Below are positions 9,466-58,365 of a stretch of 64,000 nucleotides of DNA, in pieces. The stretch covers positions 1 to 64,000 of the forward strand of contig BPIL01000011.1 of NCBI GenBank assembly GCA_026004095.1, written 5' to 3'. The notes beneath the pieces were generated by a model. The model saw only the letters and a program-made list of their open reading frames with translations, was not told where the DNA came from and did not search any database. The first letter of the stretch is position 1. The number at the start of each line of letters is the position of its first letter. A program made the translations under genes and the position numbers. The stretch comes from Meiothermus sp. (lineage in GTDB: Bacteria > Deinococcota > Deinococci > Deinococcales > Thermaceae).

Positions 9466-9474
9466 GCTGTCTGG

Positions 9475-21737: not shown

Positions 21738-21740
21738 TCA

Positions 21741-22556: not shown

Positions 22557-22569
22557 ACGAGGTGTTGGC

Positions 22570-28217: not shown

Positions 28218-28338
28218 CAAGGTTGCTGACCGCGTGATGCCCCCTAGAGACCGCTAACTAGCCGTCCGTAAAAGCTCCACAGTTTTTGCCGTCATCAGAA
28301 CTGAGAAGGCCAACCAGTGCCAGCCTCGCAAGGTCTCA

Positions 28339-29474: not shown

Positions 29475-30294
29475 TCAGCCAGCCGCTCATAGTCGCGCGC
29501 CAGCCTGCGAAACCGGGATGTCCAGGCAAACGAACGTTCCACCACCCAACGCTTCGGCAGCAGGACGAATCCTCGTCTAGCACCCTCCACCTTGACCACA
29601 CACAGGGCGATTCCTTCCGCCTCCGCCGCTTGTGCTGCCTCTTCTCCGGTGTAACCCTGATCCACAAAGGCCACGGCCACCTGCGCCCCAGTAACTTCCT
29701 GTAGCCGTTGGCTCAGTGCCCCCACCTGGGCCCGTTCCTGTTCGCTGGCCGCCGTCACCACCAAAGCCAGCAGATGGCCCAACGTATCCACCGCCAGGTG
29801 AACCTTGCTCCCCTTGCGTCGCTTGTGCCCGTCATACCCGGCCCGCCCCCCACTTTGCGGGGTGGACTGCAGGGTGCGAGCGTCGTAGATGGCAGCACTG
29901 GGGTGGGCGGCTTTGCCCTGGAGCATTCGCAGGGTCATGCGCAGATCATGTACCAGGTCTTCGAAGACCCCCCGGTTCATCCAGCGGTAGGCTTGCGCCT
30001 GAACGATATGGGGGGGTGGGAAGTCGTGGGGGAGGTAGTCCCATTGAGCACCGGTTCGGACCATCCAACGCAGGGCGTTGAACACTTCGCGCAGGTCATA
30101 CTTGCGCTGGGGAGCCTCTAGCGGAGCGAGGGTCAAATAGGGCAGCACCAGGGCCCATTCCTCATCACTCACGTCCGATGGGTAGGTACGACGGTTCATG
30201 ATCTAAACATAATCGCATGGCCTGATTTGGGTAAGGTGGTTTGTAGATTCTAGCGCCAAAAGTTCGCTGTAGGGGTGTTCCCCGAACTGAGAGG

Positions 30295-31308
30295 TCAGGG
30301 GGAGGTGAGGATGGTGCCGTCCGCCCCCACCGCCACGAACCGGCCGCCACCGTAGGCGACGCTCCAAAGCGTGTTCGAGGTGCCCGAGGTCTGACTTGTC
30401 CAGGTGACGCCGTCGGGGGAGGTGAGGATGGTGCCGTCCGCCCCCACCGCCACGAACCGGCCGCCACCGTAGGCGACGCCCCGAAGCGAGTTCGAGGTGC
30501 CCGAGGTGCGGGGCGTCCAGGTGACCCCGTCGGGGGAGGTAAGGACGGTGCCGTCATCCCCCACCGCCACGAACTGGCTGATCCCGTAGGCGACGCTCCA
30601 AAGCGTGTTCGGGGTGCCCGAGGTGCGGGGCGTCCAGGTGACCCCGTCGGGGGAGGTGAGGATGGTGCCAGCGAATCCCACCGCCACGAACCGGCCGCCC
30701 CCGTAGGCGATGCCGTGAAGCCAGGTTCCGGCATCCGAGGTCTGACTTGTCCAGGCGACCCCGTCGGGGGAGGTGAGGACGGTGCCGTCATCCCCCACCG
30801 CCACGAACTGGCTGATCCCGTAGGCGACGCTCCAAAGCGTGTTCGGGGTGCCCGAGGTGCGGGGCGTCCAGGTGACCCCGTCGGGGGAGGTGAGGACGGT
30901 GCTGTCATCCCCTACCGCCACGAACTGGTCGCCCCCGTAAGCGACACCCCCAAGCCAGCTTCCGGTGCCCGAGATGGGGGGTGTCCAGGCGACCCCGTCG
31001 GGGGAAGTGAGGACGGCGCCGCCATCCCCCACCGCCACGAACTGGCCGCCCCCATGGGCGATGCCGTAAAGCTCGCTCGGGGTGCCCGAGGTGCGGGGCG
31101 TCCAGGTGACTCCTTCGGGGGAGGTTAGAACGGCGCTTCCATCCCCCACCGCCATGAACTGGCTGGCCCCGTAGGCGACACCGTAAAACGATCCAGCACG
31201 CCAGAACCAGCTGGCCCCAACATCGGGGGATTTTCGACAGCCTGCCAGCATTACCAGCACTAACAGAACCAACAGCCAGAGGTAGCGAAAGGGGATCATC
31301 TGTGACAT
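30295..31308 (-). CDS. Lipoprotein with tandem 40-residue propeller-like repeats, cut short
   Basis: A 340-residue frame from 31317; ATG 31305 (MSQMIPFRYLWLLVLLVLVM) is a likely start. The hydrophobic stretch ends in the lipobox LAGC, so the protein should be a membrane-anchored lipoprotein. About eight repeats follow, with the pattern VAYGGGRFVAVGDDGTILTS then PDGVTWTPRTSGT. These resemble sorting-associated or photosystem II stability/BNR-like beta-propeller repeats. The frame stops in mid-repeat (...TILTSP) next to the IS5 copy, so the C-terminus appears lost. Function is unknown. Confidence 0.7.
   Translation of the reverse strand: MSQMIPFRYLWLLVLLVLVMLAGCRKSPDVGASWFWRAGSFYGVAYGASQFMAVGDGSAVLTSPEGVTWTPRTSGTPSELYGIAHGGGQFVAVGDGGAVLTSPDGVAWTPPISGTGSWLGGVAYGGDQFVAVGDDSTVLTSPDGVTWTPRTSGTPNTLWSVAYGISQFVAVGDDGTVLTSPDGVAWTSQTSDAGTWLHGIAYGGGRFVAVGFAGTILTSPDGVTWTPRTSGTPNTLWSVAYGISQFVAVGDDGTVLTSPDGVTWTPRTSGTSNSLRGVAYGGGRFVAVGADGTILTSPDGVTWTSQTSGTSNTLWSVAYGGGRFVAVGADGTILTSP
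30297..31150 (-). repeat. Tandem 120-bp coding repeats
   Basis: Units of 120 bp encode the 40-residue repeats of the lipoprotein. Several are nearly identical at the DNA level; for example the stretches around 30480-30620 and 30780-30890 share long exact runs. This suggests recent duplication or gene conversion. Confidence 0.7.
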
Positions 31309-33689: not shown

Positions 33690-35357
33690 ATGAGAAAGCG
33701 TTACATGGGGCTTGTATTGCCGCTGCTGCTGGCGGTGGCCTGGGCTGCTTGCATCCCCGCGCAACAGCCCCAGGGCGCGCCCCCACCCATCGAGCGGTAC
33801 CGCTTTGTGTTCCTGGTGGATACCTCCGGCTCCATGATGGGCCTGGGGGACGGGAAGGCAGTTATTTTCCCCAAGGTGCAGGCCGAGCTGGTGCGTTTTT
33901 TGAGAACCCTGCCTGCGTCGGAGGTGGTGTTTGTGCCCTTCCACCAGGGCCCCCAAGGGGAGCGCCGCTTCCGCCTGCCCGAGGAGCGGGGCCCGGCAGT
34001 GGCCTATGTGCAGAATCTGAAGGCCGACGGACAGAACACCTGGATCTACCGCACACTGATGTCCACCCTGAAGTCCACCCCACCGAGGGAAGGGGTGGCG
34101 ACCATTTACTACATCTTCACCGACGGGACTGATAACGACCGCCAGGGGCCCTACCGCATGTCCGACGTGGTGCAGACCCTCCGGCTCCAGCAGGGGCCTT
34201 ACGACTGGGTGTACTACGTTGCCCTGGGGGCCTCGGTGCCCGAGGAGGTGCGCCGGGGGCTGGGCAGCCTGCCGCGCACGCGGGTGCAGCAGGCCGGGGT
34301 AGGGGAAGTGCCCACCCTGGGGGCCTATACCTTCAAGCCTGCGGCGCTTCAGCTCGGCAACCTGATGCAATCCCCCGAGGCCCGGGTGGAGGTGGCCCTC
34401 GAGGCCCAGGGGCGGCCCCGGCCTCTGCGCCTCTCTCTGGACGATGCGAACCTGCAGAAGCAGGGGGCCTTCCTGGAAGTGTCCCCCAACCGCCTGGAGC
34501 CGGGCAACCGCACCCTCAGCTTCCGCCTGCGGGGCCAGGGCCTCAGGGAAGGGGAGTACACGGCCTGGCTCTGCCTCGAGGCCGCCGAGGGCACCCTGGT
34601 GCGCCCGGAGGCCATCCCGCTGCGCTTCGCCTACCACCCCCCCGCGGCCTACACCCTGACCCCCGAGAACCCCCCCGAGCGGCTGGAGCTGCGCCCCGGG
34701 GAGAGCACCACCCTCCAGTACCGGCTGGAGGGCAATGCCTGGGCCCGGGAGCCCCTCTCCCTGAACATCGAGACTCCAAGGGGCCTCGAGGCCACCCTGA
34801 ACGGGCAGAAAGGACCCGTGGTGCTGAAGCCGGGGGAGGGGCTCGAGGTGCGCCTCACCAACCAGGGCCTGGCTCCCGGGCAGAGCGTGCAGCCCAGCTT
34901 CCAGGCCCAGGCCCCCTCCGGCAGCCAGCTTAGCCCCCTGCCCCCCCTGCCCTCCGTAACCCAGCCCAAGACCCTCTGGGAAAGGCTGCTGGACTACTGG
35001 TGGCTGCTCCTGCCCCTGCTGCTTTTTTCCGCCTTCCTCCTGGCGCGCTGGCTGGCGGCCCAGCGGCCCTGGGGGCAGGGCCGGTACTTTGGGCCCCCCC
35101 CGGAATGTGCGGAAAAACCCCTGAACCTCAAGGGCCGGGCCGACCTGGGGCAGGTGGATCCAAACCTCAAGGGCGTGAAGGTGTACCCGCGCGGCGAGGA
35201 GGTGGTTCTGGAACTCCCCTCCAGCCTGGAGGCTAAATACGAGAACAACAGACAGCGGAAAATGCCCCTGGAAAGCGGCGAAACATTTTCTCGAGGCACC
35301 CGGATTTACTTCTACGACGGCCAGCGGGAGATTGCGAGTTTCGTAGTTGAACCCTGA
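33690..35357 (+). CDS. Membrane-anchored VWA-domain protein
   Basis: ATG 33690 gives 555 residues; the frame reaches back to 33642. The N-terminus (MRKRYMGLVLPLLLAVAWAA then Cys21) looks like a lipoprotein signal. A von Willebrand A domain follows with an intact metal site, DTSGS (D44, S46, S48), and IYYIFTDGTDND further on. The middle is beta-rich, with Ig-like sandwiches (LEVSPNRLEPGNRTLSFRLR). A second hydrophobic segment WWLLLPLLLFSAFLLARWLA lies at about 437-456, and a small C-terminal domain follows. It is 12 bases ahead of the tubulin-like gene. VWA proteins partner with AAA+ ATPases in many systems, and a BrxL-like AAA+ lies downstream. Confidence 0.85.
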   Translation: MRKRYMGLVLPLLLAVAWAACIPAQQPQGAPPPIERYRFVFLVDTSGSMMGLGDGKAVIFPKVQAELVRFLRTLPASEVVFVPFHQGPQGERRFRLPEERGPAVAYVQNLKADGQNTWIYRTLMSTLKSTPPREGVATIYYIFTDGTDNDRQGPYRMSDVVQTLRLQQGPYDWVYYVALGASVPEEVRRGLGSLPRTRVQQAGVGEVPTLGAYTFKPAALQLGNLMQSPEARVEVALEAQGRPRPLRLSLDDANLQKQGAFLEVSPNRLEPGNRTLSFRLRGQGLREGEYTAWLCLEAAEGTLVRPEAIPLRFAYHPPAAYTLTPENPPERLELRPGESTTLQYRLEGNAWAREPLSLNIETPRGLEATLNGQKGPVVLKPGEGLEVRLTNQGLAPGQSVQPSFQAQAPSGSQLSPLPPLPSVTQPKTLWERLLDYWWLLLPLLLFSAFLLARWLAAQRPWGQGRYFGPPPECAEKPLNLKGRADLGQVDPNLKGVKVYPRGEEVVLELPSSLEAKYENNRQRKMPLESGETFSRGTRIYFYDGQREIASFVVEP

Positions 35358-35369
35358 GGAACGAGTTTT

Positions 35370-38099
35370 ATGGAAACAAAAAGGCTTAAGCGCACGGTTC
35401 TCATCGGCCTGGGTGGGACGGGCAAGTGGGCCCTTCTCTACGCCAAGAAGAAGCTGCTCGAGGCGTTTGGCGAGGAGCCCCCTCTGGTCAAGTTTCTGCT
35501 CATCGACACCACCGCCGCCAACAACGATCACCTGCTCACTTCCGACGGCAAGAAGGCCCGCCTGCAGGCCAGCGAAATCCTCCACATCGAGGCCCGGGGC
35601 GCGAGCCTGCTGCCCAAGGTGCACGACGAGATCCGCGAGTGGTTCCCGCCCAAGGCCGACCTCAAGGCCAACATCCTGGCCGGGGCCGGGCAGATCCGGG
35701 CCCTGGGCCGCCTGGCCCTCTTCGCCAACGCCAGCCTGGTCTACGAGAACCTGCGCGACCTGCTGGCCCTGGCCCGCGACTACAAGGATGAGCGCCCCAG
35801 CAGGGAGCGCCGCTACATCTACGAGCCCTACACCCCCCACCTCACGGTGGCGGTGGTGGGCTCCCTGGCGGGGGGCACGGGTTCCGGCACCTTCCTGGAC
35901 GTGGCCTTCCTCCTGCGCCAGCTCATGAAGGACGAGGATCAGCTCTTCGGCTACTTCCTCCTGCCCGATATCTACACCAACCGCCCGGGCACCCAGAACG
36001 TGGAGGCCAACGCCTACGGGGCCCTGAAGGAGCTGGATCACTTCATGAACTTCAAGGAGAACCTGAGCTACACCCTGGGCGGGCGGCGCATCCAGGTGGA
36101 GAAAAAGCCCTTCGACATGGTTTTTCTGGTCAACCGGCAGAACCGCGCCGGGAAAACCTTCAACAAGGTAGACGACCTGACCGAGCTGCTGGGTCTGGGG
36201 CTTTTCCTCCAGGCGGGCCCCATGGGCAAGGAGCAGGCCGATATGTTCGACAACATCGCCCACCAGCTCAACGAGCAGAAGGGGCGCTACTACGGCAAGA
36301 CCGCCCACTACGCCAGCTTTGGGGCGGCGGAGCTGCGCTTTGAGCTCGAGAAGGTGCTGGGAGAGGCGCGGAAGCAGGCCACGGCCAGGGCCATCCAGGA
36401 GCTCCTGGCCGAGAACCCCCCCTGGGAGCCCGCCGGACTCCGACAGGCCATCGAGGAGGCCCTGGGGCAGAGCTCCCCGGAGCCGGAGGGCCTTTCCAAT
36501 GTACAGGCTGCCTCGAGCCCCGAGGATGATGAACGGGTTCTAGGGAACCTCAAAGGGGCTTTAGGCCCCTACCAGAACCGAGCCAGGGAAGCTGCTAAGA
36601 AGGCCTGGGAAGGACAACTGCCCGACTTTTGGCCACGCCTGGAGGAAGCTTTCCGCGACTATCCTCTAGGCAGCCTTGTTCGGGGTCTGAGCGAGGTGAA
36701 GGATGCCCTGGATCAACGCGTTAGGACTCTCAGAGAGGAGCTAAAGAAAAGTGAGGATGCGTTTTGGGAAAGCCTGGAGCGCCTCGACCGAGATGTTCGA
36801 AAGCCAAAACAGCAGGGCCTCCTCCGCTGGCCAAGATCCTCTTCACGTGCTTCAACGCCCTTTCTAACGCGGAAGAAGATTGACGCCATTGCCGAGCAGG
36901 CCTCAGAGGTTGGGGTGGCCCAGGCCCGCGCGGAGCTGGCCCAGGAACTCCTGAGGCAGTTGGAAGCAACCCTCGAGCGCATCAAAACGCTGCGCCTGCG
37001 CCTGAGCAACCACGCGCAGGCCGCTCCTTCCGCCGCCCCCGCCCCGAACCGGGATCGCTGGGATCGCGACCCCTTCACCCTCACCCTGCCCCCGCCCTAC
37101 CTGGCCCAGGAGGCCCAGGCCGTCCAGGAGGGGCGGGTGGAGCTGCAGTCCCTGAAGCAGAAAGGCCTCCAGGCCCTGCTGGAAAACACCGAGCAGGTTT
37201 TGCAGGCGCTGAGCCTGGGGGAGGTCGGCCTGTCGGACTGGCTGCGCGGGGCGCTGCAAAACGGGGACGAGACCCTGAAGGAGGCGATCAAGCGGGCTTT
37301 CCACGAGCTGGATCACCTGGCCGCCCCCGCCTGGGACTACCAGGACGCCTGGGTTTCCAACCCTAACCTGGGCCACCGGGAGATGGTCTCCATCCTGGGG
37401 GTGGGGGAGAAGGACGGCTCCCACGATCCCCTCGAGGTCTCCGAGGATTTGCTCAACATCCTGGCGGGCAACATCCACGAGCGGAGCAAGCTCCAGAAGG
37501 TGTCCACCGGGGACCACCGGCGGGTGCTCCTCTACCGCATCGAGGCCTCCATCCCAGCCTTTGCCCTGCGGGGCATCGAGGCCTACCGGGAGAAGTACCA
37601 GGCCCTTTCAAAGGATCGCAGCTTCCACCTGCACCGCGCCTGGGAGGAGGACCTCGAGGATCTCTTCCCCCTGCCCGACCCGGAGGAGGCCGCCCGGATA
37701 TGGACCCAGGCCCGCCTGCTGGGCATCATCCGCGAGGACAAGGGGGAGTACAGCTACGAGGACACCCGCGAGGTGGGCGGGCGGCGCGTGGTTCTGGGCG
37801 GCACGCCCGGAGAAGCCTTTGAGGCCTTTGCCCGGGACTTCTTCGCCTTCAAAGAGGTGGAGGGCCAGGTGGTGAAAAAGGATCGGGCCTTGCGGCAGGA
37901 GCGGGAGCGCCTGCAGGTGTACCTGAGCAAGGTGCAGGAAGCCCTGGAAAGCCGCGAGAGCCTGCTCCAGAGCCGCGACTCCTGGACGGAGAAAGACCTG
38001 GCGATGTTCGAGCGAGAAAAAGCGGTTCTGCAAGCGCTTCAGGAGGAACTCCAGAGCTACAACCCCGATAGCGGCAAGGACACCTTCCCCTCCCTCTAG
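35370..38099 (+). CDS. Tubulin/FtsZ-like GTPase (Tubulin_2 type)
   Basis: A 909-residue protein. The N-terminal LIGLGGTGKWALLYAKKKLL (about 12-31) and VAVVGSLAGGTGSGTFLDVA (about 157-176) contain the glycine-rich GGTGSG loop that defines tubulin/FtsZ superfamily GTPases. Both sites and the length fit the large Tubulin_2 group found in bacterial multi-gene conflict clusters. The C-terminal two thirds is helical with coiled-coil stretches (DALDQRVRTLREELKKSEDA, EQVLQALSLGEVGLSDWLRG). It may polymerise in a GTP-dependent manner. It is followed after two bases by the 678-residue gene. The FtsZ of cell division is about 350 residues and is not this gene. Confidence 0.85.
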   Translation: METKRLKRTVLIGLGGTGKWALLYAKKKLLEAFGEEPPLVKFLLIDTTAANNDHLLTSDGKKARLQASEILHIEARGASLLPKVHDEIREWFPPKADLKANILAGAGQIRALGRLALFANASLVYENLRDLLALARDYKDERPSRERRYIYEPYTPHLTVAVVGSLAGGTGSGTFLDVAFLLRQLMKDEDQLFGYFLLPDIYTNRPGTQNVEANAYGALKELDHFMNFKENLSYTLGGRRIQVEKKPFDMVFLVNRQNRAGKTFNKVDDLTELLGLGLFLQAGPMGKEQADMFDNIAHQLNEQKGRYYGKTAHYASFGAAELRFELEKVLGEARKQATARAIQELLAENPPWEPAGLRQAIEEALGQSSPEPEGLSNVQAASSPEDDERVLGNLKGALGPYQNRAREAAKKAWEGQLPDFWPRLEEAFRDYPLGSLVRGLSEVKDALDQRVRTLREELKKSEDAFWESLERLDRDVRKPKQQGLLRWPRSSSRASTPFLTRKKIDAIAEQASEVGVAQARAELAQELLRQLEATLERIKTLRLRLSNHAQAAPSAAPAPNRDRWDRDPFTLTLPPPYLAQEAQAVQEGRVELQSLKQKGLQALLENTEQVLQALSLGEVGLSDWLRGALQNGDETLKEAIKRAFHELDHLAAPAWDYQDAWVSNPNLGHREMVSILGVGEKDGSHDPLEVSEDLLNILAGNIHERSKLQKVSTGDHRRVLLYRIEASIPAFALRGIEAYREKYQALSKDRSFHLHRAWEEDLEDLFPLPDPEEAARIWTQARLLGIIREDKGEYSYEDTREVGGRRVVLGGTPGEAFEAFARDFFAFKEVEGQVVKKDRALRQERERLQVYLSKVQEALESRESLLQSRDSWTEKDLAMFEREKAVLQALQEELQSYNPDSGKDTFPSL

Positions 38100-38101
38100 C
38101 C

Positions 38102-40138
38102 ATGGTGCACCCCACCCTGCTGATCGCCTTTCCCAGCGCCCGCCCCCTGGTGGAGCCCCTCTATTCGGTATGGGAGAAGCGGCTGGGCCCCAGCGGCCTG
38201 GCCCTGGAGAAAGCCCAGCCCCCAGCCTGGCGGGAGGGGCTCGGGCGGCTGCTGAACCAGAGCCGCCTCCTGGCCCTGCGCGCCCGGGGCCTTTCCCCCG
38301 ACCCCGCCCCCACCCTGGTGGTGCTGGGCAGTCCCCTGGAGGGGGCGCTCGAGGAGACCCTGGCGGATCTGGAGGCGTTTTTCCTGGGCGCGGGAAGCCA
38401 GGGCCTCGAGGCCCGGCTGCACCTGGTGCTCCTCCTGCGCGACCCCTTGGAGTTCCAGGCGGCGGGCCGCTTCCCCCCGAATCCCCGCCACCCCCTGCCC
38501 AGCCGGGTCTGGCCCCTGGCCCTCTGGAACCGGCGGGGGGGCCGGCTGGCCCGGGAGGAGTACCTCCAGGTATGGGTGCAGCACTTTGTGGAGGCCCTGC
38601 TCCACACCCGGGCCCCCCTTCAGCCCGACCGGGGCCGGGACTGGATGGGGCTGGGCATCGCCCGCATGGAGCGCACCCAGCCCCAGGCCCCGGATCTGGC
38701 CCCGGGGCTCTGGGAGGCCATCAAGGAGGCCGGTGAAGGGTATTCAGCGCCTTTTCCGCTCCCCCAGCCCCCGAGGGCTTCCGCCGAGGCCAGGTATCCC
38801 CCCAGGCCGGAGCGCCAGGACTGCCACCGCTACCCCGAGTGGCAGGGCCCCCTCTGGGAGCAGGCCCATCAGGCGCTGGCCCGGGAGGATGAGACCGCTT
38901 TGGAGGAGGCCCTGCTTCCCCTGGAGAACCCCATCCGGTTTGCTGGTGTAAACGAGGCCCTCTTCAAAGGCCCCAGGGCCCTGCAGGCCACGCTAACCGC
39001 CCTGCAGGGGGCCCGGGCCGAACTCCAGAACCGGCTGCACGCCGCGCTGGCGGAGCTGGACGAGGGCCTGGGGTTCCGGGGCCAGCGGGCCCGTTACCGG
39101 CGCCTGAAGGCCCGCAAAGACCGGGGGCGGCCCGTTGACGAGGAGGAGTTTGGCCGCCTCGAGGCCCTTTTCCAGGAGCTCGACGGGGCTTTGGCGGATG
39201 GGCGGCTGGAGGTTCTGCTGGAAAGGGACGGGGAGGCCCGGGCGCTTCAGCAGAAACTGGAGCACCTGAAAGCCGAGCTGGAGGAAGGGCGGCAGGCCTG
39301 GAACAAGCAGGAGGCCCCCCCGCCACCCCCGCCGCAGCCTCGAGGGCCCTGGGGGTTTTTTTCCAGGCGCCCGACCACCCCCGAGACCCCTTCCGCCCGC
39401 AAGCGGCTGTGCGATGCGGCCTGGAGCATCCTGGGGGAGGCCCACGAGCTGCACGCGGCCTACGCGGCCAGGCTGGCAAAATACCGGCGCATTTACCTGG
39501 AGATTGGCTACCTGAACGCGCTGCTGCCCGCCCTGGCCGAGGAGGAGCGCCAGCTCCAGGAAACCCTAAAGCGCATCCAGGCCTTCGACCCCGAGCCCCC
39601 CTCGAGAAGCCACAACCCCCTGGTGGTTCGGCTCACCGGGCCCCGGCCCCCCCGCTCGGCCTACCGCCAGGAGGCTGCGCGGCTTCTGCGGGAGGGGATT
39701 CTGGAGCACCTGTGGTACGGCGACGACCGGGAAGCCCTGGAAGAGGAGCTGCTGGAGGGGGCCGAGCGCCTCCTGGCCCACACCCCTCCCCCCGAGCCCC
39801 TGAACCCCTCCCCCCAGGCCTGGGCCCTCCTGGTGGAGGCGGCCACCCCCCAGGTGCCGGTGCGCACCTGGCCCGAACACCGGGCCTATGCCTATGTGCT
39901 GGGCAGCGCCCCGGGGCGCTGGGGGGAGGCCTACGCGGAAGAACCGGGGCGGGAGGGGGAGGTGGTGCTTTTCCGGCTCCTGTACCCCCTGGCGCCCGAG
40001 GATCTCTGGCGGGAAGGGGCCGAACCCTTTTCCGAGGAGGGGGAACTATCCCCGCAAGGGGCCCCGGCCCCGGCGGGACAGCCCAGGGACAGCCTGCGCC
40101 CCAACACGCTTCTGGACGAGCTGCAGGGGCTTCTGTGA
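38102..40138 (+). CDS. Unknown protein between tubulin-like and BrxL-like genes
   Basis: A 678-residue protein beginning MVHPTLLIAFPSARPLVEPL two bases after the tubulin-like stop. Parts suggest an alpha/beta N-terminal domain (TLVVLGSPLEGALEETLADL, RLHLVLLLRDPLEF). Coiled coil follows (LEHLKAELEEGRQAWNKQE), then a Pro-rich linker and a helical segment (YRRIYLEIGYLNALLPALAE). No catalytic motif is visible. The short hydrophobic strand ending in LLRDP resembles the second strand of Rossmann-like folds, but I would not assign it. Its fixed place suggests it is an adaptor of the cluster. Confidence 0.8.
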   Translation: MVHPTLLIAFPSARPLVEPLYSVWEKRLGPSGLALEKAQPPAWREGLGRLLNQSRLLALRARGLSPDPAPTLVVLGSPLEGALEETLADLEAFFLGAGSQGLEARLHLVLLLRDPLEFQAAGRFPPNPRHPLPSRVWPLALWNRRGGRLAREEYLQVWVQHFVEALLHTRAPLQPDRGRDWMGLGIARMERTQPQAPDLAPGLWEAIKEAGEGYSAPFPLPQPPRASAEARYPPRPERQDCHRYPEWQGPLWEQAHQALAREDETALEEALLPLENPIRFAGVNEALFKGPRALQATLTALQGARAELQNRLHAALAELDEGLGFRGQRARYRRLKARKDRGRPVDEEEFGRLEALFQELDGALADGRLEVLLERDGEARALQQKLEHLKAELEEGRQAWNKQEAPPPPPPQPRGPWGFFSRRPTTPETPSARKRLCDAAWSILGEAHELHAAYAARLAKYRRIYLEIGYLNALLPALAEEERQLQETLKRIQAFDPEPPSRSHNPLVVRLTGPRPPRSAYRQEAARLLREGILEHLWYGDDREALEEELLEGAERLLAHTPPPEPLNPSPQAWALLVEAATPQVPVRTWPEHRAYAYVLGSAPGRWGEAYAEEPGREGEVVLFRLLYPLAPEDLWREGAEPFSEEGELSPQGAPAPAGQPRDSLRPNTLLDELQGLL

Positions 40139-40153
40139 TGAGGAAGGTGGGAA

Positions 40154-41749
40154 GTGGTGGTTCTGGAAAAAGCTGAGCACGCGTTCCCTGGGCATATTCT
40201 GGATAAAGGCCTGATTCGGGAAGAGGTTTTTTACCGCATCCCCCGCTACGTGGTGGAGTACCTGCTGGCCCGCATGGGGGGCCACCGCGAGGCCGTGGAA
40301 AAGGTGCGCAAGCTCCTGGAGGAGCGCTACCTGGGCCCCGGCCACGAGCAGTGGATCAAGGATCAGCTCCTGCGCGCGGGCCGGTTTGTCCTCATCGACC
40401 GCCTCGAGGTGCAGGTGGATCTGCAGACAGGCTCCTACCATGGCCGGATTCCCAGCCTGGGAGAGCACCGCCTGGAGGTGCGGCCCCGCCTGGCCGAGGA
40501 GCACCCGGGGGTGCTGTACGGGATGTGGGGCACCCTGGAGCTGCTGTACGACCCGGCCACCCGCAGGGTGCGCCTGGGGCAGTTTGTGCCCTTCGAGGCC
40601 CACCTGAAAGACCTCGAGCCCTTCCAGCGGGGCCGGCAGGCCTTCACCGAGGAGGAGTGGACGGACTTCCTCCTGGGAAGCGTGGGCATCAACCCCGAGG
40701 GTCTGAGCGAGCGGCAAAAGCTCCTCTACCTGGCCCGGCTGGCCCCCCTGGTGGAGCCCAACCTGCACTACCTCGAGCTGGGCCCCCGCCAGACCGGGAA
40801 GACCTACCTCCTGCGGAACACCTCGGCCGAGGCCCATGTGGTCTCCGGGGGCAAGGTGAGCCCGGCGGTGCTCTTCTACAACCAGCTCACCCGCCGCCCG
40901 GGCCTGGTGCCCACCTACGAGGTGGTGATCTTCGACGAGATCGCCCACACCGCCTGGGACGATCCCTCCGTAATCTCCATCCTGAAGGACTACATGGAGT
41001 CGGGCCAGTTCAGCCGGGGTGGAAAAACCCTGGCCGCGCAGGCCTCGCTGGTCTTCCTGGGCAACGCCGACGACCCCACCCCGCCCGTAACCCGCGTTCT
41101 GCCCAACGGGCTGCGGGGGGATACGGCCTTCCTGGATCGCATCCACGGCCTGCTCCCCGGCCACGAGTTCCCCAAGATCACCCCCGATCTTCTTTACCAG
41201 GGCCCGGCCCTAGTGGTGGACTACCTGGCCGCGGCCTTGCGCCGGCTGCGCCCTCTGGCCTTCCCCGCGGAGGTGAGCCTGTCCTCGGGCTACACCCAGC
41301 GGGACATCCGCGCGGTGCGCAAGTGGCTCTCCGCCCTGCTCAAGCTCCTCTACCCCCACCGGGTCTGGCCGGAGGAGCGGGTGAAAGGCCTCCTGGAGTT
41401 CGCCCTCGAGCTGCGGGAACGGGTTTACCAGGAGCTCCACCGCCTGAACCCGGGCGAGTTCCCCCCGCGCAAGCCCCAGGCCCCGCCACCCCGGCTTGAA
41501 TGGGCAGAGCTCCAGGCCCTGCTGCCCGCAGCGTACGCCGGTCTTTTTCAAGCCCTGCAGGAGGCGGGCCTGCCCCCGCCGGAGGAAGGCCCCGAAGACC
41601 TGATGGAAGAGGGACGGGTTATTGGGCAGAGCCTGGCCCGCTGGGGAAAAAAGCGCCTGGTGCCTCCGGGGCTGGGAGCGCACGGCCTCGAGGTTTACCC
41701 GGAGACCCCCGTGGAGGCCATCCGGGCGTACCTGAAGGAGGAGCTGTGA
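40154..41749 (+). CDS. BrxL-like AAA+ ATPase without the usual Lon-type tail
   Basis: 531 residues from GTG 40154 (40157 is also possible), after GGAAGGTGGGAAG. The core matches BREX BrxL: YLELGPRQTGKTYLLRNTS (Walker A, K216), HVVSGGKVSPAVLFYNQL, VVIFDEIAHTAWDDPSVISI (Walker B, D261/E262), ILKDYMESGQFSRGGKTL and SLVFLGNADDP. BREX BrxL proteins are usually longer and end in a Lon-like protease domain with a Ser-Lys dyad. Here the C-terminus is a different helical segment (WAELQALLPAAYAGLFQALQ). No PglZ, BrxC or methylase is nearby, so this is not a standard BREX locus. Its stop overlaps the next start. Confidence 0.85.
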   Translation: MVVLEKAEHAFPGHILDKGLIREEVFYRIPRYVVEYLLARMGGHREAVEKVRKLLEERYLGPGHEQWIKDQLLRAGRFVLIDRLEVQVDLQTGSYHGRIPSLGEHRLEVRPRLAEEHPGVLYGMWGTLELLYDPATRRVRLGQFVPFEAHLKDLEPFQRGRQAFTEEEWTDFLLGSVGINPEGLSERQKLLYLARLAPLVEPNLHYLELGPRQTGKTYLLRNTSAEAHVVSGGKVSPAVLFYNQLTRRPGLVPTYEVVIFDEIAHTAWDDPSVISILKDYMESGQFSRGGKTLAAQASLVFLGNADDPTPPVTRVLPNGLRGDTAFLDRIHGLLPGHEFPKITPDLLYQGPALVVDYLAAALRRLRPLAFPAEVSLSSGYTQRDIRAVRKWLSALLKLLYPHRVWPEERVKGLLEFALELRERVYQELHRLNPGEFPPRKPQAPPPRLEWAELQALLPAAYAGLFQALQEAGLPPPEEGPEDLMEEGRVIGQSLARWGKKRLVPPGLGAHGLEVYPETPVEAIRAYLKEEL

Positions 41750-43731
41750 CAGAAGTAACGCCTTTATCCCTTGCAGAAACCTTTTTAAAGGCTAGGGGAC
41801 GCCTCACCCCCGCCGAGCAGGTTGCGGTGATGGACGCCTTCTTTTCCTTTGCCCAGAATCCCCGCCATCCTGGTCTCCGATTGGAAAAACTCCACAGCGG
41901 GTTCTGGTCCATTCGCGTCAACCAGGACTTGCGCGGAATCCTCTACCCCCAAGGTAAGGCCTGGATAGCGGCCTATTGCGGCCACCACGACGAGGCCTAC
42001 GACTGGGCGAACCGGCACCGGGTGGAGGTTCACCGCATAATCGGCGAGCTCCAGATTATCCGCACGGTGGAGGTGGAGGTTCCGGTGCCCGTGGAGGTGG
42101 AAGCCCCCCTGGCCCGCTACGACGAGGAGTACCTTCTCAGCCTGGGGGTGCCCCCGGACTATGTAAAGCCCCTACGCTACGCCACAGAGGACGGGATTTT
42201 GGAGCTCATGAAAGGCCTGCCTGAAACGGTTCGGGAGCGAATCTGGAGCCTCCTAGATGGGAAACCAGTGCCCCCGCCCCCCAGGATCCAGGTTCAAAGC
42301 GCGGAGGAACTCCTTTCCCATCCCCTGATCCAGCGGCAGTTCGTCCTGCTTCAGAGCCTCCAGGAGGTGCGCCAGGCCCTGCAAGGCTCCTGGGAGGCCT
42401 GGCACTTCTTCCTGCACCCCTTGCAGCGGGAGGTGGTGGGGGCCCGCTTCGGGGGTCCGGCCCGGGTGACGGGTGGGGCGGGCACGGGCAAGACCGTGGT
42501 GGCGATTCACCGCACCCGCACCCTGGCCCAGCGCTACCCCGAGGCCCGCATCCTCCTCACCACCTTCAACAAAGGCTTGGCCCAGCGGCTCAAAATCGCC
42601 CTCAAGGGGCTGGCCGGGGAGGAACTCCCCAACGTTTGGGTGGATCACCTGCACAACCTCGCTTTGCGCCTCTACGAGGAGGTTTTTGGGCAGCCGCAGA
42701 TTTGGACGGAGGAGAAATACCGCCCCGTTCTGGAAAAGCTTAGCCAGGGGCTGGCCTTCCGTCCGGACTTCGTTCTCTCCGAGTGGGAGATGGCCGATGC
42801 CTGGGGCCTGTACACCTGGGAGGACTACCGGGGCTTTTCCCGCGAGGGCCGGGGTACCCCTCTGAGCGCCCGGGAGCGCCAGGCCCTTTTCGAGGTTTTC
42901 CAGAAGGTTTGGGAGACCCTGCGTGCCCAGGGGGCCACCACCTTTAACGGGCTCTGCCACCGGGTGCGCGCCGCCCTGGAGGAAGGGCGCCTGCCCCGCT
43001 TGCGCGCGGTGGTGGCCGACGAGACCCAGGACTTCGGCCCCGCCGAGCTCATGCTCCTGCGGGCCCTGGCCGAGGAGGGGGAGGACGACCTCTTCCTCAC
43101 CCTGGACCCCGCCCAGCGGATCTACCGGGGCCCCACCTCCTGGCGGGCGCTGGGCCTCGAGGTGCAGGGGCGCTCCCGCAGGCTTCGGGTCAACTACCGC
43201 ACCACCCGGGAGATCGGGGAGCTGGCGGAGCGAACGCTTCCCTCCCAGGTGGAGGGGGAGGTGCGGGGGAGCCTGGCCCTTCTGCGGGGTTCCAGGCCGG
43301 AAATCCGCAGTTTTTCCAGAGAGGAGGCGGCCCTGGAGGAGCTTTTGCGCTGGATCCGCTGGCTTTTGGGCCAGGGCCTGGAGCCCCGTCAGATCGCCGT
43401 TCTGGCCCGGGTGCATAAGCTGGCCGAGCGGGTGGGGGAGCGCCTGCAGAAAGAAGGCCTCTCCACTCAAAGGCTGGATGAAGATGGGGCCGGGGTCTGG
43501 TACGGAACGGTGCACGGGGCCAAGGGCCTGGAGTTCCGGGCGGTGGCCCTGTTCGGGGCCAACGACGGCCTGTTCCCCTTAAGAGCCCTGCTGAACAACG
43601 CCGCCGACCCCCAGGAAAGGGCCCTGGTGGAGGAGAAGGAGCGCAGCCTGCTGTACGTGGCCCTCTCCCGGCCCCGGGAGTACCTCTGGGTGGGTTACTG
43701 GGGCGGGCCCAGCCCCTACCTGCCTTCCTAA
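41746..43731 (+). CDS. UvrD-like SF1 helicase with N-terminal RelE/ParE-like domain
   Basis: The start is GTG 41746, overlapping the BrxL-like stop (GTGA), giving 661 residues; the open frame upstream is antisense-like filler. Residues 1-95 look like a RelE/ParE toxin fold (LEKLHSGFWSIRVNQDLRGI, AWIAAYCGHHDEAYDWANRH). A long linker leads to an SF1 helicase: VTGGAGTGKTVVAIHRTRTL (K249), VVADETQDFGPAELMLLRAL, LTLDPAQRIY, LRVNYRTTREIGELAERTLP, VHGAKGLEFRAVALFGAND and YVALSRPREYLWVGY. Such fusions occur sporadically in bacteria. It should translocate 3'-5' on single strands. It ends the plus-strand cluster. Confidence 0.88.
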   Translation: MTEVTPLSLAETFLKARGRLTPAEQVAVMDAFFSFAQNPRHPGLRLEKLHSGFWSIRVNQDLRGILYPQGKAWIAAYCGHHDEAYDWANRHRVEVHRIIGELQIIRTVEVEVPVPVEVEAPLARYDEEYLLSLGVPPDYVKPLRYATEDGILELMKGLPETVRERIWSLLDGKPVPPPPRIQVQSAEELLSHPLIQRQFVLLQSLQEVRQALQGSWEAWHFFLHPLQREVVGARFGGPARVTGGAGTGKTVVAIHRTRTLAQRYPEARILLTTFNKGLAQRLKIALKGLAGEELPNVWVDHLHNLALRLYEEVFGQPQIWTEEKYRPVLEKLSQGLAFRPDFVLSEWEMADAWGLYTWEDYRGFSREGRGTPLSARERQALFEVFQKVWETLRAQGATTFNGLCHRVRAALEEGRLPRLRAVVADETQDFGPAELMLLRALAEEGEDDLFLTLDPAQRIYRGPTSWRALGLEVQGRSRRLRVNYRTTREIGELAERTLPSQVEGEVRGSLALLRGSRPEIRSFSREEAALEELLRWIRWLLGQGLEPRQIAVLARVHKLAERVGERLQKEGLSTQRLDEDGAGVWYGTVHGAKGLEFRAVALFGANDGLFPLRALLNNAADPQERALVEEKERSLLYVALSRPREYLWVGYWGGPSPYLPS

Positions 43732-46220
43732 GATATTGAGCTGGGGAAGTCCACGGGCTTCTCGGGGTAGTCGGTGGGGGAGGCTTCCTGCTCTTCCACC
43801 TGGGCCAGGCCCCTCACCCGCTCCCAGCACCCCCCGAGCAACTCCCCGAAGGAGGGGGGGCGGGGAAACTCCTCTTCGGCGGTGGTCTTCCAGAGGTGGC
43901 CCGCACCGAACCCCGGGGAAAGCACCAGCAGATCCCGGGCTCGAGTGAGGGCCACGTAGAGGAGGCGTGCCTCCTCTTCGACCTGGCCGCGCAGGTTTTC
44001 CTTTAGCAGCTCGGCGTAAAGCCCACCTGGTTTTTTGTCCAGGCGAATTCCGAGGCCCCTCGCGGGGTGGAGCAGGAGGGAGGGGCTGGGGGCTGCGGGC
44101 CTTCTCTCCAGGCCCACCAGGAAGACCACCCGCCACTCCAGGCCCTTGGCCGCGTGAACGCTGAGGAGCTGGACGGCCTCGAGGCCCCCCAGGGGCGGCC
44201 TGGGTAGCTCCAGCCGGCGGCGCACCAGGGCCCTGAGGCGATCCACCACCCCCCACAGCCCCTCGCCGCGGGCCTCCAGGCCCCTGACCAGCTCCAGGAA
44301 AGCCCTGTAATCCGCCAGGCGCCGCGCCGGCCCCGGAAGGTGGGCCAGGACGGCGGTGTACCCGGTGACAAGGTCGGCCTCCTGCAGGAGGAAGCTGGGA
44401 AGCAGGCCCCGCTTCTGGCGCAGCTCCTCCAGCACCTGCCGGGGTTCCTCCGGGCCATGTGCCTGGAGGGCCTCCCACCAGGTGGCGGCCTCCCGATCCT
44501 CGGCCAGCCGGTGCAGAACAGCGTCGGGCACGGCGAAGTAGGGGCTTCGCAGAAGGGTCAGCAGGGCCAGGTCGTCCTGGGCATCGGCCAGGAAGGCCAG
44601 GAGGGCCATCCCGTCGCGGGCCTCGGGGGTCTCCAGGAGGCTGCCCCCACCGGCCGAGACGGCCGGGATGCCCTCGGCTTCCAGGGCCCGGGTGAAGGGC
44701 TCGAGGGTGTTCCAGGTGCGGGCCAGGATGGCGATCTCGCTGGGGCGCACCGGGCCGTCGGGGAGCCCTTTTTCCAGAAGGGTGCGCACCTCCTGGGCCA
44801 CCCGGCGGGCTTCGACCTCCCGCAACTCGTCTACGTTGGACGGGGGGCTGCTAAAGAACAGGTGCCGCAGGCAGGCTTCGGGGCTGTTCCAGGCGGGGCG
44901 GGTGGGCTGTAGGGGCTGGTGCAGGGGGCCGAGGAAGCCCTCGGCCAGGCGATCCACAGCCTCCAGGAGGGGGGCCTGGGTGCGGTAGTTGGCCTCCAGC
45001 CGGACGGCCCGCCCCCCGGGCCGGGTTTTCACCTCCTCCACGAACCCCGTGAAGACCCGGTGATCCGCGTAGCGGAAGCCGTAGATGGCCTGCTTGCGAT
45101 CCCCCACCACCGCCACCGGGGCCTCCCCGAAGAGCCGCTCGAGGAGCTCCCCCTGGACGGGGTTGGTGTCCTGGTGCTCGTCCACCAGAAAGGCCCGCCA
45201 GCGTGCCCGGTAGGCCTCCAGCACCGGGGGGTGCTCCAGGGCCCGCAGGGCGTGCACCTCGAGGTCGGCGAAGTTCAGGACGCCGTCCTCCCGCTTGCGC
45301 CTCTGGAGAAAATTCCGCACCCCCTGAAAAGCCTCCGCCAGGAGGTGGCGGTGCTTCAACAGGAATAGATCCCCCGAGCCCGTTTCGGGCAGGAAAAGGG
45401 CTGCCTGCCGGGCCTTATCCTTCAGCTCGCGAAGGAACTCCCTGGCCTCGAGGGCCTGGGGCTGCCTGATGAAGCGGATTTTTTCCAGAGATTCACGGGC
45501 CGCCTGGGGGTCGTGCTCGGCCACCGCGGCCGCCTCCAGGAGTTTGGATACCGCATTGTAGAGGTTGGCCAGATCGCGGGGGTGGTGGCGGGACGTCATC
45601 TCTCGCAGCGCCCCCTCCATCTCCTCGGCCAGGCGGCCCACCCGACGGGCCCACTCGGCCCGGCCCTGGCGGAACGCCTGCTCCAGGGCCTCCTGTCCCC
45701 CGGCCAGGCGGTGCTCCAGGGTGCGGAAAGCCTGTTCGGCCTCCAGGGGCTGGCGCAGGAGGGCCAGGAGGGCCTCCTCCAGAAGGTCGTAGGGAAGAAG
45801 TCGCTGGAGCTCCGGGGGCACCCCCTCCAGGGCCTCGTCCAGGTGCTCGGAGAGCCAGAGGGCGCTCTCCACCTCGTCCAGAATGCGGAAGGCCGGATGA
45901 ACCCCGGCTTCCTCGGGGTACTCCTGGCAGATGCGGGCTGCCAGGCTGTGCAGGGTGCCGATGGGGGCGGCCTCCACCTCGTACACCCGCTCGGGCGCTA
46001 CCTGGCCCTGGAGCACCCGGCGCACCCGGGCCCGGAGTTCCCGGGCGGCCTTCTCGGTAAAGGTCACGGCCACGATCTCCAGGGGGGAGAAGCCCTTGCG
46101 CTCCACCAGCCAGAGGTAGCGGTGGGCCATGAGGTGGGTTTTGCCCGTTCCGGCCCCGGCCTCCACCGCCACGGGGCCGTCGTGCTCCACCGCTGCTCGC
46201 TGTTCCGGGTTCAGGCTCAT
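43728..46220 (-). CDS. AddA/UvrD-like SF1 helicase
   Basis: The start is ATG 46220 (MSLNPEQRAAVEHDGPVAVE) behind GAGGTG, giving 830 residues; the frame extends to 46328. Motifs are VEAGAGTGKTHLMAHR (K27), VAVTFTEKAARELRARVRRV, FLVDEHQDTNPVQGELLERL, VVGDRKQAIYGFR, LEANYRTQAPLLEAVDRLAE, LLSVHAAKGLEWRVVFLVGL and LLYVALTRARDLLVLS. The architecture is like the helicase part of AddA/RecB without the C-terminal RecB-type nuclease. It converges on the plus-strand helicase with a 4-bp overlap of the stop ends. It may serve DNA processing for the same locus or be an independent repair gene. Confidence 0.9.
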   Translation of the reverse strand: MSLNPEQRAAVEHDGPVAVEAGAGTGKTHLMAHRYLWLVERKGFSPLEIVAVTFTEKAARELRARVRRVLQGQVAPERVYEVEAAPIGTLHSLAARICQEYPEEAGVHPAFRILDEVESALWLSEHLDEALEGVPPELQRLLPYDLLEEALLALLRQPLEAEQAFRTLEHRLAGGQEALEQAFRQGRAEWARRVGRLAEEMEGALREMTSRHHPRDLANLYNAVSKLLEAAAVAEHDPQAARESLEKIRFIRQPQALEAREFLRELKDKARQAALFLPETGSGDLFLLKHRHLLAEAFQGVRNFLQRRKREDGVLNFADLEVHALRALEHPPVLEAYRARWRAFLVDEHQDTNPVQGELLERLFGEAPVAVVGDRKQAIYGFRYADHRVFTGFVEEVKTRPGGRAVRLEANYRTQAPLLEAVDRLAEGFLGPLHQPLQPTRPAWNSPEACLRHLFFSSPPSNVDELREVEARRVAQEVRTLLEKGLPDGPVRPSEIAILARTWNTLEPFTRALEAEGIPAVSAGGGSLLETPEARDGMALLAFLADAQDDLALLTLLRSPYFAVPDAVLHRLAEDREAATWWEALQAHGPEEPRQVLEELRQKRGLLPSFLLQEADLVTGYTAVLAHLPGPARRLADYRAFLELVRGLEARGEGLWGVVDRLRALVRRRLELPRPPLGGLEAVQLLSVHAAKGLEWRVVFLVGLERRPAAPSPSLLLHPARGLGIRLDKKPGGLYAELLKENLRGQVEEEARLLYVALTRARDLLVLSPGFGAGHLWKTTAEEEFPRPPSFGELLGGCWERVRGLAQVEEQEASPTDYPEKPVDFPSSIS

Positions 46221-46497
46221 ACCTGGCGACCGCACCTCGAATTGAACGTTGAGACTGCCAGGCAGGCGGCCCGGTTCTTGCGCTGCGCCGCTCGCGCGGT
46301 GTTCTCCTTGTGGCGGCGGTACCGGCAACCGGCAGCGACAGGGAGCAAGGACGTCTGGCGTGCCCGGAGCCAGGGGGCGTGGGGAAGGGGGCCGTCAATG
46401 CGTAGAAAAAGAAAGGGCTTCACCTTGTAGCCCCAGGGTAGGCCAAGGCGGGCGACAGGTCAACACATCCGGGATGCCGTGGGGCCCTGCGCCCGGG
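46221..46497. other. Intergenic stretch without recognisable gene
   Basis: No frame here has gene-like composition or homology that I can see, and no clear promoter stands out. GCGCTGCGCCGCTCGCGCGG (about 46277) can fold into GC-rich stems. It separates the AddA-like helicase gene start from the end of the MhqD-like gene. Confidence 0.4.
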
Positions 46498-48647: not shown

Positions 48648-50448
48648 ATGTCAAACTCAACCGCTGCGCTGGTCATCTACCGCCAAAAACCTGCCCTGGC
48701 CTGGGAGAAGGAAGGGCGGCTGGAACTCCTCCTCTCCACCGGGGAGCGGGTGAAGGTGCGCCCCAAAGACGTCCTCCTCCTCCACCCGGGGCCCGCAAGC
48801 CTGGACCTGAGGGTCCCTGAGGGGGAGGAGGAGGCGGCCTGGGAGCTCTTAAAGGGGGAGCGGGTCTCCCTAAAGGAGCTCGCCGAGCTCGTCTACGGGG
48901 CCTACACCCCCGAGGCGGCCTACGGGGCCTACCTCCTCGCCCAGAAGGGGGAGCGCTTCGTGCTGGAAGGGGAGGGAGTTAGGGCCCGCACGGAGGAGGA
49001 GCTTTTGGCCCTCCTCCGGGCGCGGGAGGAAAGGGAGGCCCGGGAGCGGGCCTTCCGGGAAGGGGTGGCGCGGCTTAAGGAGGGCACCCCTGCCCCCGAG
49101 GACCGTCCCCTCCTCCAGGAGGTGGAGGCCTTGGCCTTAGGGGAAAGGAAGGAAAGCCTCGTCCTCCGTGCCCTGGGCCTTTCCGAGACCCCTGAGGCCG
49201 CCCACGGCCTCCTCCTCCGCCTCGGGGTCTGGCGGCGGGAAAACCCCCACCCGAGGCGGCTTGGCCTCCCCCTAAGCCCCCCGGGCCTCCCGGTTCCCCC
49301 CCCTGCCCGAGGAGGAGCGGGCCGACCTCACCCACCTCCCCGCCTTCGCCATCGACGACGAGGGGAGCCAGGACCCGGACGACGCGGTGTGGGCGGAAAG
49401 GGTGGGGGAGGGGTTCCGGCTTTACGTGCACGTGGCGGACGTGGCCGCCCTGGTGGCCCCGGGTAGCTCCCTGGACGAGGAGGCCCGCCGCCGGGGGGCG
49501 AACCTGTACCTCCCCGAGGGCACGGTACCCATGCTCCCCGAGGGGGTGACCCAGGCCCTGGGCTTGGGGTTGCAGGACCTCTCGCCCGCCCTCACCTTTG
49601 AGCTCTTGGTTTCCGAGGAGGGGGAGCTTCTGGAGGAAAGGGTCTACCCGAGCTGGGTGCGCGTTGCCCGCCTCGCCTACCGGGAGGCCCTGGAAGTGGA
49701 GGGCTTGGAGGCCCTGAAGGCCCTTTCGGAGGCCTTCCGGCGGCGGCGCCTGGCGCAGGGGGCCGTGGACCTCGCCCTGCCCGAGGTGAAGGTGCGGGTG
49801 GAAGGGGAAGCCATCCGGATCATCCCTCTCCCCCCCTACGAGAGCCGAATATGGGTGCGGGAGGCCATGCTCCTCGCGGGCTACGCCGCGGCCCACCTAG
49901 CCCTCCGGGAAGGGCTTCCCTTCCCCTTCGCCACCCAGGAGGCCCCCATCAGGCGGGTGGAGGGGGAGGGCCTGAGCGCCCTTTGGGAGCAGCGGAAGGC
50001 CCTGAAACGGGCCCAGCTCAAGGCGGTGCCCGCCCCCCACAGGGGCCTAGGCCTCCCCCTCTACGCCCAGGTGACGAGCCCCTTGAGGCGCTACCTGGAC
50101 CTGGTGGCCCACCAGCAGCTTCGGGCCTGGCTCAAGGGGGAAAGGTCCCTTGCCCAAGGGGAGATCCTGGAGCGGGTGGGGGCGGCGGAGGCGGTGGCCG
50201 ACCTGGTGCGGGAGGCCGAGAGGAAGAGCAAGCTCCACTGGACCCTCCTCTACCTCCAGGAGAGGGGCTACGAGGGCCCCGGGGTCCTGGTGGAGCGCAA
50301 GGGCGGGCAGGGGGTCTTCCTCCTCCCCGAGCTCGGCCTCACCGCCCAGGTGGCCCTGCCCGCCCCCCTTCCCCTGGACGCGGAGGCCCGCCTCCGCTTC
50401 CTGGAGGCGAACCTTACGGCCCTCGAGGTCCGCTTCGCCCTCCTTTAG
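48648..50448 (+). pseudogene. RNase II/R-family exoribonuclease, frameshifted at a C run
   Basis: Frame 1 (48648 to about 49295) encodes the N-terminal region (LVIYRQKPALAWEKEGRLEL, RVKVRPKDVLLLHPG). Frame 2 (about 49297-50448) continues with LPEEERADLTHLPAFAIDDE and DPDDAVWAE (the Asp cluster of the RNB active site), then FRLYVHVADVAALVAPGS, ANLYLPEGTVPML and YAQVTSPLRRYLDLVAHQQL. The switch falls in eight C at 49296-49303; seven C would restore one frame of about 600 codons. No S1 domain is evident at the end. It could be a true mutation, a sequencing artefact or a slippage site. Codon use is Thermus-like. Confidence 0.75.
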
Positions 50449-56337: not shown

Positions 56338-56935
56338 CACTCTTTTTGATTTTAGCACGGCTCTGGAGAAAAGAGGGGGCGTGGTAGGCTCTCATCAAAA
56401 TCCCTTCGCGTGCTACCTGAAGCCTACCCCTCCACCCCCGCCATCCTGAGCAGAAGACAGCCGCGGATGGAGGTTGTGCACCAGCAGAATCAGGTTTACC
56501 CGCGCCAAGAACCTCTCAAAGGATCGGCTGGCAATCCGGTGAAGACCCAACGAACGCACCATCATGCTGAACCGCGTCTCTATCCAGTTCCGCACCCTGC
56601 TCATCCATCCCTTCCACCCCGTCTCTACCTTCTTGCCCCCTCGCAAACGATAGGGAGGGGTTTTCACCCCGGGTACCCAACGGAACCCCCGATCTCCCAA
56701 CAGGGCCGGCAGCCCCTCCAAAAGCTCAGCCCCCAGGTCTCCCGCGCATTCCCAGGAAGGAGGCCCCAGCGTATCCACGGCCATGTGCACCTTGCTGCCT
56801 TTGCGCTTCTTGGCTCCATCATAGCCCGCTCGCCCACCGCTCTCAGGACTTGATTGCAACGTTCGACCATCATAGATGGCTGCGCTGGGCTGAGCCACTC
56901 GGCCCTGCAGCAGCCGCAGCGTTTCCCGTAGGTCA

Positions 56936-58071: not shown

Positions 58072-58365
58072 TCATGCACCAAATCCTCCAATACGCCCCT
58101 GTTCATCCAGCGCCGGTTCTTACGAGCCAACGCAGGGCGTTGAACACTTCCCGCAAGTCGTATTTGCGCTGCTGTGCATCCAGAGGCAACAGGGTCAGGT
58201 AGGGCATCACAAAGGCCCACTCCTCATCGCTCACGTCGGATGGGTATGGTTTGCGGGTTGTCGGCTGCATGTCCTAAACATAATCTGCCTGCCGCGTTTG
58301 GGATAGGTTCCTAGGAGCCTCTAGGTAACAGATTTGTGTGAACCTGCTTGCATAGAAGGGGGAGC

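Follow-up and report, generated by a model that had tools for sequence, protein, structure and literature searches.

In bacteriophage exclusion (BREX) systems, BrxL restricts phage; it forms a dimer of hexamers and binds DNA in its pore, with ATP promoting assembly (PMC10164562). PglZ is conserved in all BREX types (PMC11974810), and a 2026 survey describes BrxL as specific to types 1 and 4, while its main text nowhere mentions tubulin, FtsZ or UvrD (PMC12839542). Tubulin-like GTPases and VWA proteins meet in two other groups of systems. FtsZl1-VWA operons, for which membrane remodelling was predicted by Makarova and Koonin (2010), frequently, not universally, include a P-loop GTPase, OmpA or a kinase (PMC2875224). 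GAP1-N2 GTPase-centred systems, which contain tubulins (two tubulin genes in Firmicutes) and an outward VWA protein, have been proposed as conflict systems by Kaur et al. (2020; PMC7159879). Here we describe a locus on a 64,000-nucleotide stretch of Meiothermus sp. DNA (GenBank assembly GCA_026004095.1, contig BPIL01000011.1, positions 1 to 64,000; hereafter the window) that joins a VWA protein, a Tubulin_2/FtsZl1-type GTPase (TUB), a 678-residue protein (UNK) and a BrxL-like AAA+ ATPase in a conserved four-gene unit. VWA-FtsZl1 operons and BrxL are each already known; a union of VWA-Tubulin_2 with BrxL, or the full VWA-TUB-UNK-BrxL combination, was not found among the open-licence PubMed Central papers listed by the searches.

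The unit was identified at 14 loci, with one further fragment. Thirteen of these loci belong to the order of the window's host and one to bacterium HR30, which is unclassified in the NCBI taxonomy. Several genomes are named below as inferred (G007, M. luteus; G010, M. rufus; G011, M. taiwanensis; G018, C. roseus; G023, A. silvanus). The four genes are contiguous and in the same order at ten loci (window, G016, M. taiwanensis, M. luteus, G019, G020, C. roseus, G041, HR30 and T. oshimai), and this order is retained in HR30 at 27-50% identity. At the other four loci an insertion sequence separates UNK from BrxL (A. silvanus), a contig edge cuts TUB with the gene order retained (M. rufus), just the end of TUB remains beside a transposase (T. 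thermophilus SNM3-3), or only the end of TUB is visible close to the contig end (G075). The arrangement is not due to chance, because the order recurs.

Genome searches gave the same picture. TUB matched 11 of 61 genomes, and ten were kept as TUB-positive; G045 was excluded as a distant Tubulin_2 relative, its match being 29% identical over residues 4-280 and unaccompanied by UNK or BrxL. UNK was present in all ten TUB-positive genomes and in none of the other 51, and so was BrxL when counted at >=500 bits (six further genomes have weaker BrxL matches or matches to its C-terminal domain only). Among 111 genomes of the window's phylum, UNK occurred in 12, every one in the same order as the window's host; this search added G075 and a set of VWA, TUB and UNK fragments in Thermus sp. 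JCM 17653 (G076), which was left out of the 14 loci. One scan of genome contigs, made to look beyond the host's phylum, returned 52 stretches and six loci, with HR30 the only one outside Thermaceae, while 56 pattern stretches from viral contigs, the phage record collection not having been searched, contained no relative of the unit. Identity between loci also changes in step among the four core proteins (r 0.91-0.97; 10 loci, 45 pairs), whereas the helicase follows the core less closely (r 0.34-0.70; 15 pairs). By recurrence and co-variation, the conserved unit has four genes and not the five or six grouped together by the first-pass annotation, which had been made from the window's letters: the downstream helicase is moved, inverted or unseen at several loci, and the AddA-like gene lies beside one other copy.

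Table 1. Genes and domains of the window locus (positions in the window).
Feature	Residues	Coordinates	Strand	Description
VWA protein	555	33690..35357	+	signal peptide, extracytoplasmic VWA domain, membrane helix, cytoplasmic tail
TUB, Tubulin_2/FtsZl1-type GTPase	909	35370..38099	+	helical middle
UNK	678	38102..40138	+	alpha/beta N-domain 1-209, long helices 249-494, small C-domain
BrxL-like AAA+ ATPase	531	40154..41749	+	N-terminal and ATPase domains (10-439), short C-terminal region
Small BrxL C-terminal domain	450-528 of BrxL	41501..41737	+	common to DruE-like helicase C-termini
UvrD-like helicase	661	41746..43731	+	optional partner; UvrD domains (Pfam); RelE/HigB-like N-terminal domain ~41746-42051, weak support
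PcrA/AddA-like standalone helicase		43728..46328	-	neighbour, probably outside the unit (Pfam)

All six genes lie where the first-pass annotation had placed them, and they are packed as tightly as it described (Table 1), with gaps of 12, 2 and 15 bases between VWA, TUB, UNK and BrxL. A scan for promoters found none (shuffles expect 0.5). The VWA protein, whose likely start is ATG 33690, matches Pfam VWA at E 4.4e-5 and has a signal peptide at residues 6-24 and a single C-terminal membrane helix at ~433-457 (~34986-35060). This hydropathy-predicted topology should place the VWA domain outside the inner membrane and leave a cytoplasmic tail of ~100 residues. Its metal site (D60, S62, S64, T133 and D161, in 571-residue numbering) is invariant in 10/10 aligned sequences, the window copy included; the intact metal site and the predicted membrane anchor agree with the first-pass annotation. 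The assignments of TUB (Pfam Tubulin_2, E 5e-61; glycine loop GGTGSG at residues 168-173, 35871-35888) and of BrxL (BrxL_ATPase, 9e-95; BrxL_N, 4.7e-20) were likewise correct. BrxL exceeds the TIGR02688 cut-off and carries a Walker A motif, GPRQTGKT, at residue 210 and FDE at 260; a PDB search with it matched only two sequences at 0.001, 8emc and 8emh, both BrxL.

The helicase starts at GTG 41746, within the BrxL stop (GTGA); therefore the raw open reading frame of 743 residues overstates the length of the protein, which has 661. Its UvrD domains agree with the earlier description, while the RelE-like head proposed with them is a weaker match, with HigB-like_toxin hits of 6.2e-4 and 1.6e-3, below the Pfam cut-off, in two of four proteins scanned, the window copy not among them, and HigB chains only at E 0.48-1 in the PDB. 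The AddA-like reading frame converges on the helicase end with the 4-base overlap reported (43728-43731), and no nuclease domain was matched on its product in Pfam.

UNK was listed as unknown, and the searches agree, with nothing at E<=0.1 in Pfam, NCBIfam or PADLOC; its predicted structure adds a candidate fold. In a structural comparison of the predicted model, bacterial tubulin ranks first, with the GTP-binding loops absent. Foldseek returned no match at E<=0.001, sequence profiles gave a tubulin fold no support, and a UNK profile matched nothing in the PDB up to E 1. UNK may be a degenerate tubulin-fold protein, the second of the locus, i.e., a pseudo-GTPase. A reading of it as a GAP1 protein was set aside for lack of Pfam support: in Pfam, which we take to contain GAP1 models, neither a GAP1 protein nor its GTPase appeared when UNK with its homologues (E<=10) or the other locus genes were searched. 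ABC_tran_CTD was matched by 2/10 UNK sequences (best 2.4e-4), probably through the UNK helices.

The helicase lies at or near 9/14 loci. In the window, G016, G020 and T. oshimai it comes immediately after BrxL; in M. taiwanensis it is displaced, in M. luteus and G019 inverted, and in M. rufus and A. silvanus it stands on the far side of a methylase module. None was seen at the C. roseus or HR30 loci, and G041 shows no more than a remote match (30% over 250 residues); in all three the BrxL is likewise without the small C-terminal domain. The remaining two loci were read over too short a distance to judge the helicase. At >=300 bits the helicase occurs in 8/10 TUB-positive and 2/51 other genomes, and 14 genomes match at 1e-30. 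Judged by these neighbourhoods, the helicase is an optional partner, often present, whose occurrence goes with that of the small BrxL C-terminal domain. This domain is 57% identical over 79 residues to the end of a 1835-residue DruE-like helicase. DruE-like helicases of ~1835 residues ending in the same domain occur at L021 (12200-17704) and in G020, A. silvanus, G036 and G043. In G043 such a protein adjoins a homologue of the helicase, while G036 has the protein and no helicase match at 1e-30, which counts against a strict link between domain and helicase. The domain may act as a docking module, possibly one common to two unrelated defence NTPases, BrxL and the DruE-like proteins. Of the other loci, only G016 has an AddA-like homologue close to the unit (~90% identical), and the gene is probably incidental.

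That the locus is not a normal BREX locus, as first proposed, was confirmed. PglZ (PF08665) is absent from 10/12 host genomes searched, a set that excludes T. oshimai and SNM3-3; G020 and HR30 have one match each, on a contig other than that of the unit, and in HR30 a second, BREX-type BrxL stands beside it. BrxC and PglX were not found in the window when the six locus genes and 29 flanking open reading frames were compared with Pfam. In contrast, PglZ adjoins or lies near BrxL on four annotated plasmids examined (Rhodococcus, Deinococcus NW-56, Haloarcula and Nostoc) and in Deinococcus QL22; a further BrxL match in Abditibacteriota has uninformative annotation. In a tree for which the program warns of long branches, all 14 BrxLs of the unit group in a single clade (100/99), separate from the BREX BrxLs included. 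PADLOC gave no match for VWA, TUB or UNK and matched BrxL to BrxL models only. On gene content and phylogeny, the unit is not BREX.

The unit is mobile. The four proteins of M. rufus and A. silvanus, which belong to different genera, are 88-98% identical, whereas those of M. rufus and the window, from one genus, are 41-68% identical, and the T. oshimai BrxL groups inside the window's BrxL group. Plasmid records carrying the unit include T. oshimai pTHEOS01, T. thermophilus pTthSNM3-3b, M. taiwanensis pMtWR-220 and A. silvanus pMESIL01. By these sequence comparisons the unit moves between genera, often on megaplasmids. The window itself holds a plasmid origin region (5489-9966) with RepA-like (8033-9424, minus strand), ParA (7025-7942, minus) and ParB (6144-7028, minus) genes and ten 17-base iterons at ~33-base spacing (9590-9966; 0.06 expected). 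The iteron recurs with <=1 mismatch in 7/10 genomes searched, in clusters of 6-10 in M. taiwanensis, C. roseus, G020 and A. silvanus, which suggests one Thermaceae replicon family. The G016 copy lies on the sole contig (3.1 Mb) of its assembly and is probably chromosomal.

Other features of the replicon were noted in passing. One insertion sequence is present in three copies (20595-21740, 28334-29475 and 56929-58074; 99.9-100% identical) and a second element in two (3893-4670 and 29475-30252). A 117-base tandem repeat of 7.5 copies (30298-31179) adjoins an insertion sequence transposase gene, and the one minus-strand frame read across it has internal stops; it is perhaps a decayed repeat-protein gene. 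RNase II-like domains fall on two overlapping reading frames in different frames (48648-50448), a possible frameshift.

Recognised defence genes are located near 9/14 loci. A DrmD-like SNF2 helicase and a 1338-residue DrmMI-like methylase adjoin the unit at six loci (G016, G020, A. silvanus, M. rufus, T. thermophilus SNM3-3 and G075), and all of these but G075 have a DruE-like helicase as well; the PADLOC names of these module genes rest on one copy each (A. silvanus, M. rufus), the other copies being placed by tblastn. The SNM3-3 locus also has type I-C cas genes. In M. taiwanensis HmaA-HmaB-HmaC lie just upstream of the unit, in G041 an Mrr-type nuclease adjoins BrxL with a BrxC/D ATPase past a divergent repeat protein, and in C. 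roseus a Csm6 protein is encoded downstream. Two flanking proteins scanned in HR30 had no Pfam match. The earlier proposal of a single NTP (nucleoside triphosphate)-driven defence or anti-plasmid machine holds insofar as the same core order recurs as a mobile, NTPase-rich set in defence islands; its anti-plasmid half found no specific support, as the unit rides megaplasmids.

Close to the unit there is also a RecQ-like cassette in the window, T. oshimai, G019 and A. silvanus, and a part of one in M. rufus. It was considered as a part of the system, given its presence in 7/10 TUB-positive and 7/51 other genomes (p 6.5e-4), yet equally many genomes have the cassette without TUB, and it was treated as context. 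In the window (9966-20372) the cassette comprises a 1728-residue exonuclease/DinG/RecQ-like fusion, whose RecQ part is DpdF-like (PADLOC), two small coiled-coil proteins, the first interrupted by a TnpB/IS605-type gene (15673-17214, minus strand), and a 511-residue protein with relatives in 14/61 genomes. DUF1998/MZB (PF09369) has no discriminating value, with matches in all 11 genomes searched. RNA ligase or TROVE (Ro-like) genes also recur near the unit (window 22534-23727; L017 15623-16693; L031 10727-12202; L036 9635-11098).

The gene set, its recurrence and transfer between genera, its conserved motifs and its defence-island context can be read from sequence directly. The reading we favour, at a probability of roughly 0.5, is that the VWA, TUB, UNK and BrxL proteins act together, anchored at the membrane, to exclude invading DNA, a defence role that we infer from this context and from the known properties of BrxL. 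The VWA domain, outside the inner membrane, would detect a metal-dependent ligand or some disturbance of the envelope, for example when a phage adsorbs or DNA enters. The cytoplasmic tail of the protein would then nucleate assembly of TUB with its partner UNK, possibly a tubulin fold without nucleotide binding. This assembly would recruit BrxL to the place of entry, and there the ring of BrxL would close on incoming double-stranded DNA and block or remodel it. Where present, the RelE/UvrD helicase might dock via the small BrxL C-terminal domain and process DNA or RNA. Sensing, assembly, recruitment, docking and restriction would all be steps beyond the anatomy of the locus. A bolder and distinctly tentative version is that the outward VWA receptor triggers a TUB and pseudo-GTPase UNK heteropolymer at the membrane that loads BrxL rings on entering DNA. 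This would be a PglZ-free, tubulin-powered use of BrxL, in a cassette swapped among megaplasmids and plugged into different methylase or helicase modules.

In a rather improbable alternative, the unit is the restriction arm of a composite system, like BrxL in BREX, and the neighbouring methyltransferase module (SNF2 helicase, DrmMI-like methylase and DruE-like helicase) is the recognition arm. The module adjoins the unit at 6/14 loci, with Hma at one more, and the methylase is found in 8/10 TUB-positive genomes (M. luteus by a partial match) and 9/51 others (Fisher p 2.7e-4, uncorrected for kinship); the recurrence of the BrxL C-terminal domain on DruE-like proteins also agrees with it. However, the window's assembly (84% complete) and G041 contain no methylase match, in 4/8 genomes (M. 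luteus, M. taiwanensis, C. roseus and G019) the methylase is on a contig other than that of the unit, and the methylase system beside the M. taiwanensis unit, Hma, is unrelated.

It is unlikely that the unit is instead an FtsZl1/VWA-type membrane-remodelling or envelope-stress apparatus with BrxL recruited for a non-defence task. The prediction made for FtsZl1-VWA operons (PMC2875224) favours such a role, but the distribution is patchy (10/61 genomes), with inter-genus transfer, insertion sequences and the defence genes described above, and the survey cited above confines BrxL to BREX types 1 and 4 (PMC12839542). A plasmid-segregation or stability machine, in which a TubZ-like GTPase serves megaplasmids and BrxL binds plasmid DNA, would fit the replication and partition region of the window and the four other copies on named megaplasmids; it is very improbable given that RepA-, ParA- and ParB-like genes are already on the same replicon, that the G016 copy is probably chromosomal and that 51/61 related genomes searched are without the unit. 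Chance neighbourhood of unrelated genes has a negligible probability: it is refuted for the four core genes by the order kept even in HR30, and may hold for the AddA-like gene, which like the helicase varies between loci.

The membrane-anchored exclusion system proposed here would bear on two wider questions. The way in which BrxL restricts phage is called unknown in the structure paper (PMC10164562), and no paper showing a function for FtsZl1 tubulins was found in the open-licence literature searched. Both questions become accessible to experiment with a compact four-gene locus that combines the two, has no PglZ and, at three loci, apparently no helicase. If the reading is true, tubulin-like proteins would join the tools of bacterial immunity, and other FtsZl1-VWA operons may be defence systems. 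On plasmids of Deinococcus sp. QL22 (L074 7537-12652) and D. deserti (L034 9995-15065), Tubulin_2 genes adjoin MotA/TolQ-like and OmpA-like genes, and these FtsZl1 partners weakly match ZorA (1e-8, 1.6e-7) and ZorB (~9e-6). The Deinococcus loci are possible Zorya-like FtsZl1 systems, and their partners are compatible with an envelope role.

In Zorya, a membrane complex could act as an envelope sensor and relay the signal to DNA-acting enzymes in the cytoplasm. The likeness to the unit, which has no ZorA/ZorB-like protein, is an analogy of working only. With BREX types 1 and 4 the unit shares the BrxL N-terminal and AAA+ domains, and the solved structures that it matches, 8emc and 8emh, are BREX BrxLs, but it differs in the lack of PglZ, BrxC and PglX in the window, in its separate BrxL clade and in a short BrxL C-terminal region where the 672-692-residue annotated BREX BrxLs compared have a long one. 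The GAP1-N2 systems, as described in PMC7159879, resemble it in their coiled-coil tubulin-domain proteins and a membrane VWA protein facing outside; in the unit the AAA+ BrxL takes the place of their NTPase, and its hosts are Thermales rather than the lineages listed in that paper. FtsZl1-VWA operons, by their description in PMC2875224, share the Tubulin_2 GTPase, with its glycine loop, helical middle and helical C-terminus, and an adjacent VWA protein with an intact metal site and membrane segments. However, where those operons may have a P-loop GTPase, OmpA or protein kinase, none of which was found by Pfam among the six locus genes, the unit has BrxL and UNK instead, and its surroundings are mostly defence islands.
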